Assembly (NCBI GenBank): GCA_963575745.1
Contig: CAUYUJ010014266.1
Coordinates: forward strand, 267,424 to 331,423
Length of the DNA stretch: 64,000 bases
Direction of reading: 5' to 3'
Origin: Prorocentrum cordatum
Lineage: Eukaryota; Sar; Dinophyceae; Prorocentrales; Prorocentraceae
Shown: positions 28,426-57,755 of the stretch, in pieces
Numbering within the stretch: position 1 is the first letter of the stretch
Layout: each line of letters begins with the position of its first letter
Program-made: the position numbers and the translations under genes
The notes under the pieces: generated by a model
Database searches by the model: none
What the model was told of the DNA's origin: nothing
What the model saw: the letters and a program-made list of their open reading frames with translations, nothing else

Positions 28426-28457
<32 letters not shown>

Positions 28458-28550
28458 TCATCGTCGTCGTCGTCGGCGGCGGCGTCGTCGTCGGCGTCGT
28501 CGTCGTCATCGTCGTCATTTTCGTCGTCATCGTCGTCGTTATCGTCGTCG
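28392..28550. repeat. (GTC)n / (CGT)n microsatellite
   Basis: Imperfect GTC/CGT trinucleotides with a few AT-bearing interruptions run up to the 3' end of the spliced-leader element at 28551. Its last 15 bases are repeated at the element's other end. Confidence 0.85.
28536..28550. repeat. Target-site duplication, 3' side of the element
   Basis: TCGTTATCGTCGTCG, identical to 32643-32657. It abuts the AATCG tail. Because both sites are in GTC microsatellite, part of the identity could be pre-existing, but the shared TTATC interruption is specific. Confidence 0.65.
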
Positions 28551-28597
28551 ATTCGATTCGATTCGCGGGGCCATGAAGGCGAATCCAGGCGAGCGGG

Positions 28598-31160
28598 CTA
28601 CTCGCCCGAGCACTCGCCGCCAGGGCTCAGGCCGCGGCCGCGCCGCGGGCGGTCGCGGCGGTCCTCCGCGGTGGAGCTGGCGGCCAGCGCCCGCTCGGCG
28701 AGGCACTGCTCGATCTGGCCGCACGCGGCCAGCATGGCGAACCGCGGGTCGATGCCCGCCGCCACCTGCAGCACCGCCGCCGACGGCCGCGTCGTTGGCC
28801 CCTGCTCGCGGCCGCCTGCACACCCAGGCGCTGCCGCTGAACTGCCACATGCTGGCGGGGGGCCCTCTTCCACCTCGAGGCCCAGCCAGGCCAGGAAGAC
28901 CTCCTGGGCCGACGGGGGCAGTGGCCCCTGCAGCCTCAGCGCGGGGAACTCAGCACCTTTCTTCATGCGCTGCTGGACTCCTCCGCGCGGCCGTCCACTA
29001 GGATGAAGCCCTCGAGCCCAGAGGCGGCGCAGGCTGCGCTGCCCGATGGCCCCTGCCCCGATGCATGGCTCCTTGAGCTGAGGGCGGCCTCCAGCGCGGC
29101 CGCCGAGGACCATGCAGGCGCCGCACATGCTGCACGCCACCAGCTCCTGGGGCTCCTCGCCCGCGTCGCGGAGCGCGTACGCCAGGGGGTGGCCGAAGTG
29201 GCCGGCGCCAGCCGTGGCGAGGGAGAGGCCGACCGCGCTGGCCACCGAGCGGACGCTCTCAACGCGCGGCTGCTGCACCGTCGGCCTGCCTGCAGCGGCC
29301 TGCTCGGCCCGCTCCTCCTGGTCGGCGAACCTCACCCACTGCCTCTCGTCGGACCCGAGGAGGCAGTCACCGTCCTTCTCCGCGATGTCCCGCCAGACGA
29401 CGGCCGCCTCGGCGCGCAGCCGTGCTCCCAGCTCGGCGGAGCAGCGGGCGCGCAGGGTGCCGCGCCACTGCGCCTCCGTGCGTAGCCCGTCGAGCACCGC
29501 CTGCCTGTTGCCGTGGGCGGCCACCTTGTTCGCCCTGGAGCCACCAGGTCCGAGGGCGGCGGGGCACCTCCAGGGGTGGGCGTTGGCCTTGGTCGGGCCC
29601 GTCGCAACGGCCAGCTCCCTGTGCTGGCTCTCCGCCGTGCCGCGGAAGCCGATGAGGGCCTCCTCGACGGAATGGCCCGCGTAGATCACAAACCTCCAGA
29701 CCGCGAAGTCCTCGCCGCCACGGGCAGCCTGCTGTGGCTGGGGGGCCCTCCTGACGGTCCCGTGGGCGCCCGCGACGAGGCTGCCGTCGTCGTCGCATTG
29801 AGCAATAGCCCAGCCCGCGTGTCCCCAGGCGTAGAACTGCAGGTCGACCGACGAGCCGTCCACGCTCAACTTGCCATTGGCCTTGACGTCGGACGGCCTG
29901 CATGTCCTCCAGCTGCCCATGGCGTCCGTGCGAGGCCCTTGTGGGGGCGGCGGCGCAGACAACCCGCGCCGAGCAACGTCCTCCCCTGCTGCCACTCCGA
30001 GGGGGCGAACCCGCACGGCGCTCCACGCCAGCGCTGGCGAGACCGAGTCCCTCCGCGGGGCCGCAGGCGTGGGGCACTCGAACCTGCTGTGGCGCCTCGC
30101 CTGCGGCCAGTGCGCGTTCGTGAGGTGGGGGGCCAGCCCGCTCCTCTGGCGCTCGCCGAGCTCGCCTCCTGGCCCGATGAGCTCCCTGCAGGCATCCCAA
30201 GAGGAGGAGCCACACAAAGACGGGGCCCTGGCCAGCTTCCGCATCTCATGCCGACCCGAGGCGCGCCTCGCCCCTAGGCTGGCCTCTGGGCCAAGCTCAC
30301 GAAGCCCCATCAGCGTCATGTCCCGCACGTCCGTGATGAGGCACTGCCCGGACCTGAAGTGCCAGCCGATGCTGCCCAGGGTGAGGACAGCTGCATCCAC
30401 GGGGAAGTCGCGGTGCGCCCAGGGCTGCGCTGCTGACGCCTGCGGCGGCGCTGCAGCCTCGGGCGCTCCTCTGAGCATCGGCGTGGGGAGCTCGCCCGAG
30501 TGCAACCATCCTGCAAGACTATGGAGCGCGCAGTCCGTGATCAGCACGGGCGGATCCAGGTCGATGGCCCTGCGGGGCTCCCCGCGCCGCAGCCTGAGGC
30601 CGAAGGCGGCGCCGCGGGTGAGCCGCCCCAAGCAGGGGCACGCGGTGACTCGCCCCCCGCGCAACTCTCCGTCAGCTTCTCCAGTAACCGTCCGCCCCCA
30701 TGCCACACTGGACGTAGGCCCAGCCTCGTGGATCGGGTCCTCGGCGATCAGGTGCGCGTCCTCCCGCGCGCTGCAGGCCTCGAGCACCTCCAAGGCACGG
30801 TCACTTGTGTTGCCGTAGATGTCCAGCACGTCGAAGCCTGCACGGAGCGGCCCAGCCACCTTCTCACAGGCTGGCACAGCCCTGCCCGCTCTCATCTCAA
30901 GGGCGGCTGGCGTGAACCCGGCGGCGGCTCCGCGACTCCCATGGGGCGGGGCAGACGGCTGCGACGTCGGAGGGCTGAATCCTCCCGCCGTCTGCCCGCT
31001 CGAGGCCGTCGGGGGGACGCCTCGGCGGTCCCGACCGCACCTCGGCCCAGGAGCGGACCCGCCTTGCCGCCGTGGCTCCCCTCGCGTCAGGTGCAAGGTC
31101 GGCCAGTCTGACGGCGGCGGAGGCGGCGCGGGTCCCCAGGCTGTCGCCGCTGCCGAGCGG
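28598..31160 (-). pseudogene. LINE-type ORF2 remnant with degraded RNase H
   Basis: The frame is open without a stop from 32617 to 28598; its part downstream of ORF1 carries the protein sense. Around 30820-30700 GFDVLDIYGNTSDRALEVLE and LIAEDPIHEAGPTSSV resemble the second half of an exonuclease-endonuclease-phosphatase domain (low certainty). No RT core follows. The end of the protein is clearer: a Cys/His-poor remnant with HWPQARRHSRFECP, then an RNase H-like domain (SVDGSSVDLQFYAWG, HAGWAIAQCDDDGSLV, GGEDFAVWRFVIYAG, GPTKANAHPWRCP, ANKVAAHGNRQAVLDG), then a C4-like block (CSMCGACMVL … EPCIG). In place of the expected acidic residues there is IGFRGTAES and RGTLRARCSA, so the RNase H is likely inactive. 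Confidence 0.55.
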
Positions 31161-32528
31161 CTAGGAGCGACGAGGGCCCATAGGAGCGTAGCCCCCAGCA
31201 GCTGCCAGGGTAGCCAAGGCCTGGCCGTCCTCGTGCTCGTCCCTGGCATCCTCAAGGATCCTGCGCTCGGCCTTGCCAGGCTGGGGCCAGGTGCCGAGCG
31301 CCGCGCCTGACTGCCCGCGGGCGGCGGCTGGCCCGTAGGGCCCCACTGCTGGGCTCGCCCGCTGGGTGGGCGGGCCTGGCCGCACCTGCTGCCCCGCGGC
31401 CTCCGCTGGCGGCCGCTGCACTGCGGGGGCGGAGGCTCCAGCGGCCGGGGCGGGGGGGCCTTCCTCGTCGTCGACGGCGAGCCCGTCCCCGCCGAGGCCG
31501 TCGGCCCAGCGCGAGGCTGCGGCAGCAGGCGCAGCGGGGTGGAGCATGTCCGAGATGGCTGCACTCTGCGTGGCAATGATGCCCATGATTTCCAGGAGCC
31601 TGGGCGCGACGCCGTCCGCGTTGCGGCCGAGCATCTCCCCCGGCTGGCTGACCTGGGTGACGAGGCCCCCGACCGCGGTCTCCAGGGGCTGCTGGCCTCC
31701 GCACACCTCGATGGCCCGCTGGAGCGCCTGCTGGACTGTCTGAGCCTTCGATTCCTCGAGCTTGACGAGCAGGCTGTCAAAGTCCTCGACCGCGGACTCC
31801 GTCTCGGCCAGCTCTTCCTGTATCGCCGCAATCCTCCCTCTGAGGGAGTCAGCCCGCTGCACGGCCTGCTCGCGCTTGGCTCTGGTTGCAGCGATCTGCT
31901 TCTCGACCTTCTGCATGGCGTTGGCGCCGCCGTGGAGGACGGCGTGGGGGGGCCTCCCGAGCCGCTGGGCAACGCGGAGCTCGGCCTCTGCCCCCTCGGC
32001 CGAGGCCTCCGCCGCGAGGAGGGCCGCCCTGGCCTCTCGCTGGAAGGCCTCGCTGGTCTCCTCCATGGCGACCGCCTCGCGGAGGCTGGAGACGCGAGCC
32101 TGGGCTTCCTCGAGCCTGCGCTCCAGACTCGACGCTGGCTCCTCTGGCTGCTCCCCGCGCTCCTCGCGCCAAGGCGGCGGCTTGGCACCGCCCCGCGGCC
32201 GCCCCCTGCTGTTGGGCGCGCTGCTCGGCACGGTGCTGGCGGCCGAGGCTGTCCTGGAGGCGTCACCCGCTCGGCGTGCTGCACGCTGGTGCGAGCGCCC
32301 TCTGGGCTGCTGGACGAAGCCCTCACCGTCGGCCTGGGGCAGGTGCGCCGCGCGCAGGCGCTTCGCCCACGCTGGCGCCTCCTTCCCGCACGACTTGCAG
32401 GTCGCCCGCCTGTCGCACCAGTTCCACTCCTTGCACTGGCAGACCCAGTACACCCTGCGCCGCGGCGCTCCAGTCCCGTCGCCCGACATGGCTGCTGGCC
32501 CCGCGCGATCCGCCTGGCCACGCTGCAT
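31161..32528 (-). CDS. ORF1: RanBP2-type zinc finger and coiled-coil protein
   Basis: Probable RNA-binding partner of a non-LTR element. The first ATG in this frame after the spliced leader is at 32528 (MQRGQADRAGPAAMSG); the next, at 32489, is also possible. A zinc finger follows within about 20-50 residues (VYWVCQCKEWNWCDRRATC then KSCGKEAP), with W-x-C-x-C/C-x2-C spacing close to the RanBP2 type that binds single-stranded RNA. An Arg/Ser/Pro linker leads to a long heptad-rich coiled coil (LERRLEEAQARVSSLREAV; KQIAATRAKREQAVQRADSL; IAAIQEELAETESAVEDF). A Pro/Ala-rich C-terminus ends at TAG 31163-31161. An earlier ATG at 32617 opens the other long frame, so translation of ORF1 would need leaky scanning. 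The frame itself looks intact. Confidence 0.55.
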   Translation of the reverse strand: MQRGQADRAGPAAMSGDGTGAPRRRVYWVCQCKEWNWCDRRATCKSCGKEAPAWAKRLRAAHLPQADGEGFVQQPRGRSHQRAARRAGDASRTASAASTVPSSAPNSRGRPRGGAKPPPWREERGEQPEEPASSLERRLEEAQARVSSLREAVAMEETSEAFQREARAALLAAEASAEGAEAELRVAQRLGRPPHAVLHGGANAMQKVEKQIAATRAKREQAVQRADSLRGRIAAIQEELAETESAVEDFDSLLVKLEESKAQTVQQALQRAIEVCGGQQPLETAVGGLVTQVSQPGEMLGRNADGVAPRLLEIMGIIATQSAAISDMLHPAAPAAAASRWADGLGGDGLAVDDEEGPPAPAAGASAPAVQRPPAEAAGQQVRPGPPTQRASPAVGPYGPAAARGQSGAALGTWPQPGKAERRILEDARDEHEDGQALATLAAAGGYAPMGPRRS

Positions 32529-32620
32529 CGAAGAAGCGAAGCAAGAAGCTGGCCCAGGGCGCGGCGTCCCTCGCGCTCGACAGCGCCCGAAGGACTTGCG
32601 GTCGTCGGGATCGCCATGGC

Positions 32621-32642
32621 CTTGAGCCAAAATGGCTACGGA
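32621..32642 (-). other. Dinoflagellate spliced leader, full 22-nt copy
   Basis: On the minus strand the bases read T, then CCGTAGCC, then ATTTTGGCTCAAG. That is exactly the leader trans-spliced to nuclear mRNAs of dinoflagellates (first base variable T/A/G). It is followed by GGCC and an ATG at 32617. It sits precisely at the 5' boundary of the inserted element, so it marks a reverse-transcribed mature mRNA rather than an SL RNA gene; no donor GT and Sm-like tail follow it. Confidence 0.95.
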
Positions 32643-32659
32643 TCGTTATCGTCGTCGTC

Positions 32660-32701
<42 letters not shown>

Positions 32702-36160: not shown

Positions 36161-37515
36161 GAGCCTCCGACGCCACCCCCAAGATGGCCCAAGAGAGCAC
36201 AAAGTCGCCGAATGATCGCTTCAATACGCCCAAGATGGGCCCCAGGCGGCCTAAGAGGGCGCCACGACGCTCCAAGAGGCTTCCAACCGGCTGCCGAAGA
36301 GGGGCCCCAGAGGCAAAATTCGTGCCATTCCTATGGGAAATCGTACATTTTTGGCATATGCGCTTTTTCGGCCAACGCGGCGTTGACGCTGGCCCACGAG
36401 GCCGCCAAGACCGCTCCAAGAAGGCCCAAGAAGCTTCCAATAGGGCCCCGACACGGCCCAAGCAGGCGCTAAGACGGCCCAAGAGGCGCCCCAGACAGCC
36501 CAAGAGCCTCCGACGCCACCCCCAAGATGGCCCAAAAGAGCGCAAAGTCGCCGAATGATCGCTTCAATACGCCCAAGATGGGCCCCAGGCGGCCTAAGAG
36601 GGCGCCACGACGCTCCAAGAGGCTTCCAACCGGCTGCCGAAGAGGGGCCCCAGAGGCAAAATTCGTGCCATTCCTATGGGAAAACGTACATTTTTGGCAT
36701 ATGCGCTTTTTCGGCCAACGCGGCGTTGACGCTGGCCCACGAGGCCGCCAAGACCGCTCCAAGAAGGCCCAAGAAGCTTCCAATAGGGCCCCGACACGGC
36801 CCAAGCAGGCGCTAAGACGGCCCAAGAGGCGCCCCAGACAGCCCAAGAGCCTCCGACGCCACCCCCAAGATGGCCCAAAAGAGCGCAAAGTCGCCGAATG
36901 ATCGCTTCAATGCGCTCAAGGTGGGCCCCAGGCGGCCTGAGAGGGCGCCACGACGCTCCAAGAGGCTTCCAACCGGCTGCCGAAGAGGGGCCCCGGAGGC
37001 AACATTCGTGCCATTCCTATGGGGAAGCGTGCATTTTTGGCATATACGCCTTTTCGGCCAACGCGGCGTTCACACTTGCTCACGAGGCCGCCAAGACCAC
37101 TCCAAGAGGGCCCAGGAGGCTCCCAAGAGGGCCCCAAGACGGCCCAAGAAGGCGCCAAAACGGCCCCAGAGGCGCCCAAGACAGCCCAAGAGCCTGCGAC
37201 GCCACCCCCAAGATGGCCCAAGAGAGCACCAAGTCGTCGAATGATCGCTTCAATGCGCCCAAGGTGGGGCGCCGCGACGCTCCAAGAGGCCTCCAACCGG
37301 CTGCCGAAGAGGGGTCCGGAGGCAAAAATCGTGCCATTCCTATGGGAAAGCAGGCATTTTTGGCATATGCGTTTTTTCGGCCAACGCGGCGTTGACGCTG
37401 GCCCACGAGGCCGCCAAGACTGCTCCAAGAGGGCCCAAGAGGCTCCCAAGAGGGCCCCAACACGGCCCAAGAAGGCGCCAAGACGGCCCAAGGGCCGCCC
37501 AAGACAGCCCAAGAG
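36161..37515. repeat. 343-bp tandem satellite, four units
   Basis: Units begin with GAGCCTCCGACGCCACCCCC-like sequence at 36161, 36504, 36847 and 37190. The first two are nearly identical. The third and fourth diverge, and the fourth has lost about 20 bases after GGTGGG. Each unit has a C/A/G-rich part built of short CAAGAGGGCCC-like subrepeats and a less repetitive core (CATTCCTATGGGAAA … TTTTTGGCATATGCG … CGGCCAACGCGGCGTT). Since 343 is not a multiple of three, reading frames rotate between units, so conserved peptides in the translations are not evidence of coding. Confidence 0.9.
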
Positions 37516-37925
37516 CACCCCCAGGCGGCCCCAAGAGGGGCCCAAGAAGGGGAACCCGAACCGACAACCCGAGCCTTCCGCCCCCGGAGGCCCCCAAGAG
37601 GGCCCAGCGGAGCGGCCGAAGGCGCCGAGAACCCGTCAAGACATCCCAAAAGGCCCCCCGATACGCCTTTCAGGAAACACTAAGATACCAAAATCGCCGA
37701 ATTCCTTTTCCTTGACCTCCTTCTTCTCCTCTTCCTCCGCCGCATCCTCCTCCTTCTCTTCCTCCTCTCCCTTTCTACCGCATCGCCTGGTCAAACAAGG
37801 CCCAACGCAGCGCGTGGCGGAATGGGCGGCAGCCGCGGCGCCCGCGGCCGGCAGCCACGATGCCTCCCAAATACGCCGCGGACTCATGAGCGCGCTCGCC
37901 GCAACAAAACAAAGGGAGAGGCCCC

Positions 37926-57369: not shown

Positions 57370-57410
57370 CTGAATGAGGGGGGGGGGGGGGGGGTGGGGT
57401 GGGGAGGGTG

Positions 57411-57755
<345 letters not shown>

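Follow-up and report, generated by a model that had tools for sequence, protein, structure and literature searches.

Genomic copies headed by the dinoflagellate spliced leader point to a non-autonomous LINE of Prorocentrum cordatum that probably transposes through its own spliced-leader mRNA

Retrogenes tagged with the spliced leader, and relic leaders, have been reported in dinoflagellates (PMC7245778, PMC12014239, PMC3229502 and PMC8045281; here and below, papers are cited for parts of their text). How these organisms recycle mRNA into DNA is stated to be open in PMC6050394, where the type of retroelement behind the retrogenes is given as unknown and long terminal repeat (LTR) elements are favoured. 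For leader-tagged endogenous RNA-virus inserts in Symbiodinium, retroposition mediated by long interspersed nuclear elements (LINEs) has been proposed (PMC10235124). Here we describe an insertion of 4,092 bp on the minus strand (28551-32642) of a 64,000-nt window, that is, the whole stretch of DNA analysed (C13417:267424-331423 of the 4.13-Gb assembly of Prorocentrum cordatum with 21,875 contigs), which starts with a complete dinoflagellate spliced leader (DinoSL) and ends with (GAATC)n. Judging from the sequence, we regard it, with a probability of roughly 0.87, as a non-autonomous member of a P. cordatum LINE family that transposes via its own spliced-leader mRNA. An earlier note on this DNA had proposed that a trans-spliced RNA was reverse-transcribed in full length and inserted; the leader-headed copies found across the genome support this, and the inference extends from one insertion to a family, probably to many.

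The leader of the window copy, TCCGTAGCCATTTTGGCTCAAG (32642-32621), is the exact 22-nt sequence that had been claimed. Its 21-nt core has a single match in the window at up to three mismatches and none in 100 shuffles, and a scan of the window for leader relicts at three mismatches gave two matches beside the leader itself, which is chance level. The 15-bp direct repeat TCGTTATCGTCGTCG, likewise claimed before, lies outside both ends, occurs exactly twice in the window (Table 1) and never in 100 shuffles. When the flanks are rejoined, they form one in-phase array of 56.3 units with a score of 226, compared with 145 and 99 for the separate sides, and a TTA interruption, present in 2 of 161 array triplets on both strands, stands once in each copy of the repeat. 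By our criterion, there are three (TCG)n arrays on the plus strand, amounting to 0.33% of the window and including two that adjoin the insert, and ten on the minus strand. The objection that the 15-mer is chance occurrence of ordinary microsatellite was rejected because of the rejoined in-phase array and the interruption confined to both repeat copies.

The insertion has many relatives in the genome. A query of 323 nt taken from the 5′ end had 773 candidates, 40 of them scored hits. Homology of the other copies begins at the leader: 36 of the 40 start at query base 1 or 2, and the rest at base 6 (in a tandem leader), 19 (at an N gap), and 54 and 59 (5′-truncated copies). The 22-mer GCCATGGCGATCCCGACGACCG from the 5′ untranslated region (5′UTR), which is free of leader sequence, has 33 exact matches genome-wide, its reversed control none. 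The 5′ junctions were read for all 33 copies (the window, 20 fetched loci and 12 short pieces), and the leader is present in all 32 that are readable: exact at 22/22 positions in 24, with one change in six and two changes in L070, and followed by a truncated relict in L012, L028 being unreadable (N). Variation of the first base, which the earlier note had suggested as a check together with further leader-headed copies and tandem leaders, takes the form of C for the first T in three of the six one-change leaders.

The copies also share their target and their 3′ end. At least five GAC occur in the 40 nt of 5′ flank in 30 of 33 copies, compared with 15 of 1,599 windows taken from the 64-kb stretch, which served as background for the repeat tests; the exceptions are L027 (four), L070 (three) and L028 (N). 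All 19 copies with a readable 3′ end finish with two or three GAATC-type pentamers and no poly(A), and the DNA beyond is GAC-type, less clearly so in L023. Where both ends are available (19 copies), the flanking repeats measure 14-30 nt with at most one mismatch, and own pairs outscore mispaired ends, a score of at least 14 being reached by 15 of 19 own pairs compared with 26% of mispaired ends (medians 15 and 5). The insertion site is not incidental, as nearly all family copies lie in (CGA)n-type DNA. A sister subfamily of six copies (L074-L079) has an exact leader at its start as well, and its target is a minisatellite built of units of roughly 20 bp. Since these relatives and L080 lie in minisatellite, target choice changes between subfamilies.

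Some junctions deserve a separate description. By eye, the minisatellite unit in the 5′ flanks of L074-L079 and L080 is approximately GGCAGAACACACAGGAGCAC, and the flank of L041 is similar. At the 5′ junction of L021, an extra T run separates the leader from the target duplication; these may be untemplated bases ending cDNA synthesis. The leader-headed elements L088 and L089 (C26:179355 and 180892) are 1.5 kb apart, both at CAGACA repeats, and L089 lies just behind sequence that by eye resembles the family 3′ end, perhaps an insertion next to an insertion.

Longer relatives of the element have endonuclease (EN) and reverse transcriptase (RT) domains, and the window copy, called LINE-like in the earlier note, is a deleted, non-autonomous derivative without RT. 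Its C-terminal remnant of about 766 aa ends 47 nt before the 3′ end of the element and is 44-97% identical to P0004-P0014 and P0016 and 36% identical to P0017. The 14 protein relatives of this half are all named P. cordatum, and two of the three relatives of the first open reading frame (ORF1) are named P. cordatum. Residues 425-1108 of P0007, a protein assigned to the contig of the leader-headed copy L063, comprise most of EN and all of RT and are without a match in the window DNA; the copies L024, L025 and L029 (6.2-6.75 kb) contain about 2.5 kb extra between element positions 1892 and 1903. With most of EN and all of RT deleted, the window copy lacks the EN and RT of an autonomous LINE and is thus a non-autonomous LINE derivative. 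Both ends are available for 18 fetched copies, three of them long and 15 of the shorter kind (3.9-4.5 kb).

Because Pfam gives no family for four translations of the window copy, the LINE identity rests on the relatives. The Pfam scan of eleven relatives or longer copies (P0007, P0008, P0010-P0014, P0016, P0017, L025 and L029) found Exo_endo_phos in four (P0016, 5.5e-7; P0013, 9.1e-6; P0007, 3.6e-5; P0014, 0.0011), RVT_1 in four (L029, 9.9e-6, under the Pfam curated cut-off; P0014, 0.059; P0016, 0.098; P0011, 0.12), zf-RVT in five (best P0016, 3.4e-4) and RNase_H in four (0.085-0.13), and no family in P0017. The relatives have reverse transcriptase and an apurinic-type endonuclease, target-site duplications and 5′-truncated copies (L072 and L073) are found, and long terminal repeats are absent, blastn of the element against the window at E 1e-3 giving the full self-match alone. 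The element is a leader-tagged retroposed sequence in that DinoSL or a relict stands at the 5′ end of the genomic copy, and it does not derive from a host mRNA, as it encodes a LINE-type ORF1 and an EN/RNase H remnant. The features of the window copy are listed in Table 1, in which the domain labels of ORF1 and the remnant were set by eye and the parts of the remnant are named from relatives.

Table 1. Coordinates of the leader-headed element and its target in the window.
Feature	Position	Strand	Basis
Complete 22-nt dinoflagellate spliced leader, element 5′ terminus	32621..32642	-	Exact 22/22; leader here in 32/32 readable copies of 33
Target-site duplication, element 5′ end	32643..32657	.	Exact 15-mer, two in window
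Target-site duplication, element 3′ end	28536..28550	.	Exact 15-mer, two in window
Target microsatellite, 5′ side, (CGA)n on element strand	32643..32701	.	Array analysis
Target microsatellite, 3′ side	28426..28550	.	Rejoined array continuous, in phase
5′ untranslated region, 131 nt, two upstream ATGs	32490..32620	-	First 22 nt are the leader-independent probe
ORF1, 442 aa plus stop; Zn finger (WxCxC..WNW..CxxC), coiled-coil-like region (by eye)	31161..32489	-	Three relatives
Internal deletion junction; EN catalytic part and RT gone	30740..30751	-	Comparison with P0007 and longer copies
C-terminal remnant, other frame than ORF1: EN start, post-RT region, degenerate RNase H, C-terminal Cys motif (by eye)	28598..30898	-	
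47-nt 3′ untranslated region with terminal (GAATC)n tail, no poly(A)	28551..28597	-	Common to 19/19 copies with readable 3′ end

The two ATGs upstream of the ORF1 start lie at 32617-32615 and 32528-32526 on the minus strand (element positions 26 and 115), and a third ATG follows at element position 154. A fold of the 3′ end of the element (z = -2.2 against 1,000 shuffles) was not used. The likely catalytic stretch of RT in P0007, P0010, P0013 and P0014 reads, by eye, NVVDDVALQ and not the usual Y/F-x-DD. A near search of plasmids gave no match, and the ORF1 alignment met 165 pattern stretches but no relative among viral contigs. In the PDB, searched by sequence, P0007 had no match and alignment A3 one weak match to Beclin-1 (0.042), which was ignored, and the structure prediction of P0013 was unusable (mean predicted local distance difference test score 34.8). 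Elsewhere in the window there are a 343-bp unit in four tandem repeats with 92% matches (36161-37516) and a (GT)n array of 345 bp (57408-57752).

The ratio of non-synonymous to synonymous substitution rates (dN/dS) was calculated for 18 hand-picked pairs. Between the window copy and ten non-autonomous copies, ORF1 gave 0.13-0.29 in nine pairs and 0.80 in the pair with L012, in which there are few changes, whereas the C-terminal remnant gave 1.04-1.76 in all ten. Against three long copies, the window copy showed 0.33-0.35 in ORF1 and 1.06-1.11 in the C-terminal region, and three other non-autonomous pairs 0.27-0.47 and 0.81-1.21, respectively. By these ratios, the deleted copies keep ORF1 under purifying selection, whereas their EN/RNase H remnant drifts. 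That ORF1 is selected in copies unable to make RT suggests that these copies are propagated from their own translated RNA, so the mRNA that undergoes translation is probably also the template of reverse transcription. As host mRNAs are leader-capped, this translated RNA would be a trans-spliced mRNA, in agreement with the leader-headed ends.

That the leader is carried into new copies, as the earlier note had suggested, agrees with the genome-wide copies, but it is not merely carried, since tandem leaders point to re-addition. In L012, which is 97.6% identical to the window copy, a full leader is followed by CCATTTTGGCTCAAG and then by the normal 5′UTR. This relict is what would be expected if the internal AG of the old leader served as the acceptor for a new one, and such relicts are known from recycled dinoflagellate genes (PMC3229502). 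Genome-wide, there are 14,218 exact 21-nt leaders, 1,202 of which have a truncated relict directly behind them. In a sample of 70 leader places, the first 70 listed and not a random draw, the truncated relict is exact in seven and, by our rule, degenerate in four; a leader-like stretch with a local-alignment score of at least 9 occurs within the next 30 nt in 15 of 70 places, compared with 1 of 70 for a control stretch further on (18 and 5 at a score of at least 8). Single and tandem states are found together in four groups, namely the window copy and L012 (60/60 nt identical), the L030 group and L038, L099 and L033, and L081 and L117, the last three resting on short matches of 20-38 nt at 88-96%. 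The tandem leaders imply that the leader can be re-added by trans-splicing, so it can apparently be added anew besides being carried along. We infer that splicing usually takes place at the second AG of the leader (in its terminal CAAG), whereby the old leader is exchanged for a new one. At four places (L047, L050, L100 and L103), a degenerate full-length leader stands directly behind an exact one (first 22 nt), as if trans-splicing had joined the new leader to an AG immediately before the old one; GGA-type arrays could supply such an AG.

Beyond the family, 46 of the 70 sampled leaders stand behind an array of period 1-6 and two behind a longer-period repeat, compared with 32 of the 1,599 background windows for the period 1-6 criterion. 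The commonest array types are TCC (28) and GGA (12), and in 64 of 70 a T precedes the 21-mer. On the minus strand of the whole genome, 1,988 matches have TCCTCCTCC at most 8 nt upstream, about 28% of 7,017 leaders if there is one match per leader, as among the minus-strand matches listed; the plus-strand count of 4,558 was not used, some leaders being counted repeatedly. Clustering of the 60 nt after the leader places 34 of the 70 in 11 groups with shared 5′ ends, and four of the 34 (L040, L080, L089 and L110) cluster with the window copy. A genomic leader alone is therefore no sign of a host retrogene. At L031, L032, L035, L039 and L051, the downstream frames resemble LINE ORF1 by eye; Pfam gave nothing telling on these five, and L051 alone of them matches family proteins (P0014, 1.2e-5; P0016, 5e-6). 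From such sequence likeness, the other leader-headed families are likely LINEs. L041 was not counted as a LINE leader, as its match to P0012 is confined to residues 1-370, which do not belong to the stretch of P0012 alignable with the window element. L059 is a WD40 gene (PF00400, 1.5e-41) and L054 perhaps a membrane protein (by eye), both at sites with no microsatellite, so the sample gives no sign of host retrogenes using the LINE target.

Two further observations concern leaders in other settings. L105-L107 (C39:19904, 25145 and 28181) lie 3-5 kb apart with near-identical flanks and no microsatellite, maybe a local tandem duplication of a gene with a relict leader. An AT-rich viral contig (22% GC, 7,157 bases; L001:2746-2913, IMGVR_UViG_3300045993_001077) has two exact copies of the DinoSL core at a distance of 147 bases; this may be sequence of dinoflagellate origin carried by a virus, or the contig may be mixed.

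The leader-headed ends, the target and its duplications, the tail, the deletion, the selection on ORF1 and the tandem leaders, all seen in the DNA, could be joined in one cycle. A copy would be transcribed, perhaps by read-through, and the host would add DinoSL at an AG. The capped RNA would be translated into ORF1 protein, while RT and EN would be supplied in trans by longer copies. At a cut within a (CGA)n array, target-primed reverse transcription would begin with the (GAATC)n tail of the RNA and, if extended to the cap, would yield a leader-headed new copy with a duplication of about 15 bp. Reverse transcription to the cap would make the new copy begin with the leader, and as the inserted leader holds two AGs (positions 6-7 and 21-22), it would come with a trans-splice acceptor of its own. 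A single leader would be restored by use of the second AG, and the leader plus CCATTTTGGCTCAAG would result from use of the first. That the RNA of the family has a trans-spliced leader at its 5′ end is what we infer from the genomic copies.

Several points weigh against this interpretation. The set of 33 copies was chosen by an exact 5′UTR 22-mer, so copies with a changed or lost 5′UTR fall outside the count, and L072 and L073, inside GAC arrays, are 5′-truncated and have no leader. The search for target duplications had an upper limit of 30 nt, pure arrays leave their length ambiguous, and a score of 14 or more is reached by 26% of the mispaired ends as well. Pfam support is thin, the curated cut-off being passed solely by the EN of P0016 and P0013, and in two long-copy pairs the dN/dS of ORF1 (0.55 and 0.61) is not below that of the C-terminal region (0.51 and 0.58), so ORF1 and the C-terminal region are alike constrained there. 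Others of these points favour a leader that is encoded and inherited, each copy being transcribed from its first base with no need for trans-splicing, which we consider unlikely. The single leader of most copies fits an unreplaced inherited leader too, L061 and L070 have in common a change of GTAG to GCAG, and in 19 copies the leader shows three private changes in 418 cells, the next 22 nt none; in addition, the DinoSL TTT(G) motif has been proposed as a retrogene promoter (PMC6050394). Shared changes, taken as a test of inheritance, occur in 0 of 22 leader columns compared with 34 of 286 at positions 45-330, but this test is weak, as positions 23-44 are also at 0. The inherited leader is contradicted by L012 and the 1,202 genome-wide arrangements of leader and truncated relict, by the four groups with both states, three of them on short 5′UTR matches, and by the truncation exactly at the internal AG of the leader.

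The remaining explanations fare worse. SLACS and CZAR reportedly insert into SL RNA genes, and a leader exactly at the 5′ border could likewise be target DNA; however, GAC-rich repeat lies upstream of the leader in 30 of the 33, and the target duplication is outside the leader, so this is refuted for the copies read and has next to no probability. A switch of RT from the element RNA to the SL RNA would need no trans-splicing, and LINE-1 chimeras with other RNAs have been reported (PMC13174262). Switching is not expected to respect an exon border, whereas the joint is always at the 3′ end of the leader (31 readable copies, and L012 via its relict) and no SL-RNA intron sequence stands at the joint in the 32 copies read, which makes this explanation very improbable. 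Dinoflagellate host mRNAs are recycled with leaders, and a LINE transcript could have been recycled once like any of them, yet as a single accident this is refuted by the leader in 32/32 readable copies, the (GAATC)n end in 19/19, the GAC-rich target in 30/33 and the multiplication of non-autonomous copies with nested divergence, and we give it hardly any credence.

Wherever it inserts, a LINE has to regain a functional 5′ end, and the solutions described are internal promoters. In the family that we interpret as transposing through spliced-leader mRNA, the host's trans-spliced leader seems to be the solution, as the moving RNA is a processed mRNA and the tag can restore the processing site, which ties mRNA processing to the spread of a transposon. 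Since the leader ends in AG and holds a second AG inside, its reverse-transcribed form would be a portable, self-renewing trans-splice acceptor. The odds seem to us even that the leader is now a working part of many LINE families in this way, with read-through replacing a promoter of their own. A pyrimidine tract may be contributed by simple-repeat targets such as (TCC)n, and leader-headed LINE families, not LTR elements, may be the engine of dinoflagellate mRNA recycling. The 14,218 exact leaders in one genome offer material on the recycling of mRNA to DNA and on the origin of trans-splice acceptors.

In a literature search that mostly left subscription papers outside, no report of leader-headed LINEs in dinoflagellates was found, and where the P. 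cordatum genome paper treats dinoSL and transposable elements, leader-headed transposons go unmentioned (PMC10666404). The half-LINEs known as HAL1 have kept ORF1, lost RT and multiplied in trans; the window element differs in retaining the C-terminal end and in being leader-headed. L1Tc and NARTc of Trypanosoma cruzi are also a LINE with a non-autonomous partner in a trans-splicing host, but L1Tc has the Pr77 promoter and a ribozyme, and its transcripts are described as unspliced (PMC8190864). Transcripts of the retroelement Cer1 of Caenorhabditis elegans receive a 22-nt spliced leader as well; however, Cer1 is an LTR element, and SL1 was found on its spliced mRNA of 2.4 kb, which occurs with and without it, but not on the 8-kb RNA (PMC3315495). 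In Hydra, about 30% of the Iso-Seq reads of transposable elements have a spliced leader, which is a statement on transcripts, leader-headed genomic copies not being reported in the parts of the paper covered (PMC12220107). A simple-repeat target is shared with microsatellite-targeting non-LTR elements, but those named in PMC4640811 encode a restriction-like endonuclease, whereas the EN here matches Exo_endo_phos. With DinoSL-tagged retrogenes the element shares the leader at the 5′ end of the genomic copy and the re-splicing relict (PMC12014239, PMC3229502, PMC7245778), but here it is a LINE that has moved repeatedly, with a fixed 3′ tail and a (CGA)n target. The viral inserts of Symbiodinium likewise show a leader near retroposed sequence (PMC10235124); there the insert is viral and LINEs are its neighbours, whereas in P. 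cordatum the LINE itself is leader-headed.

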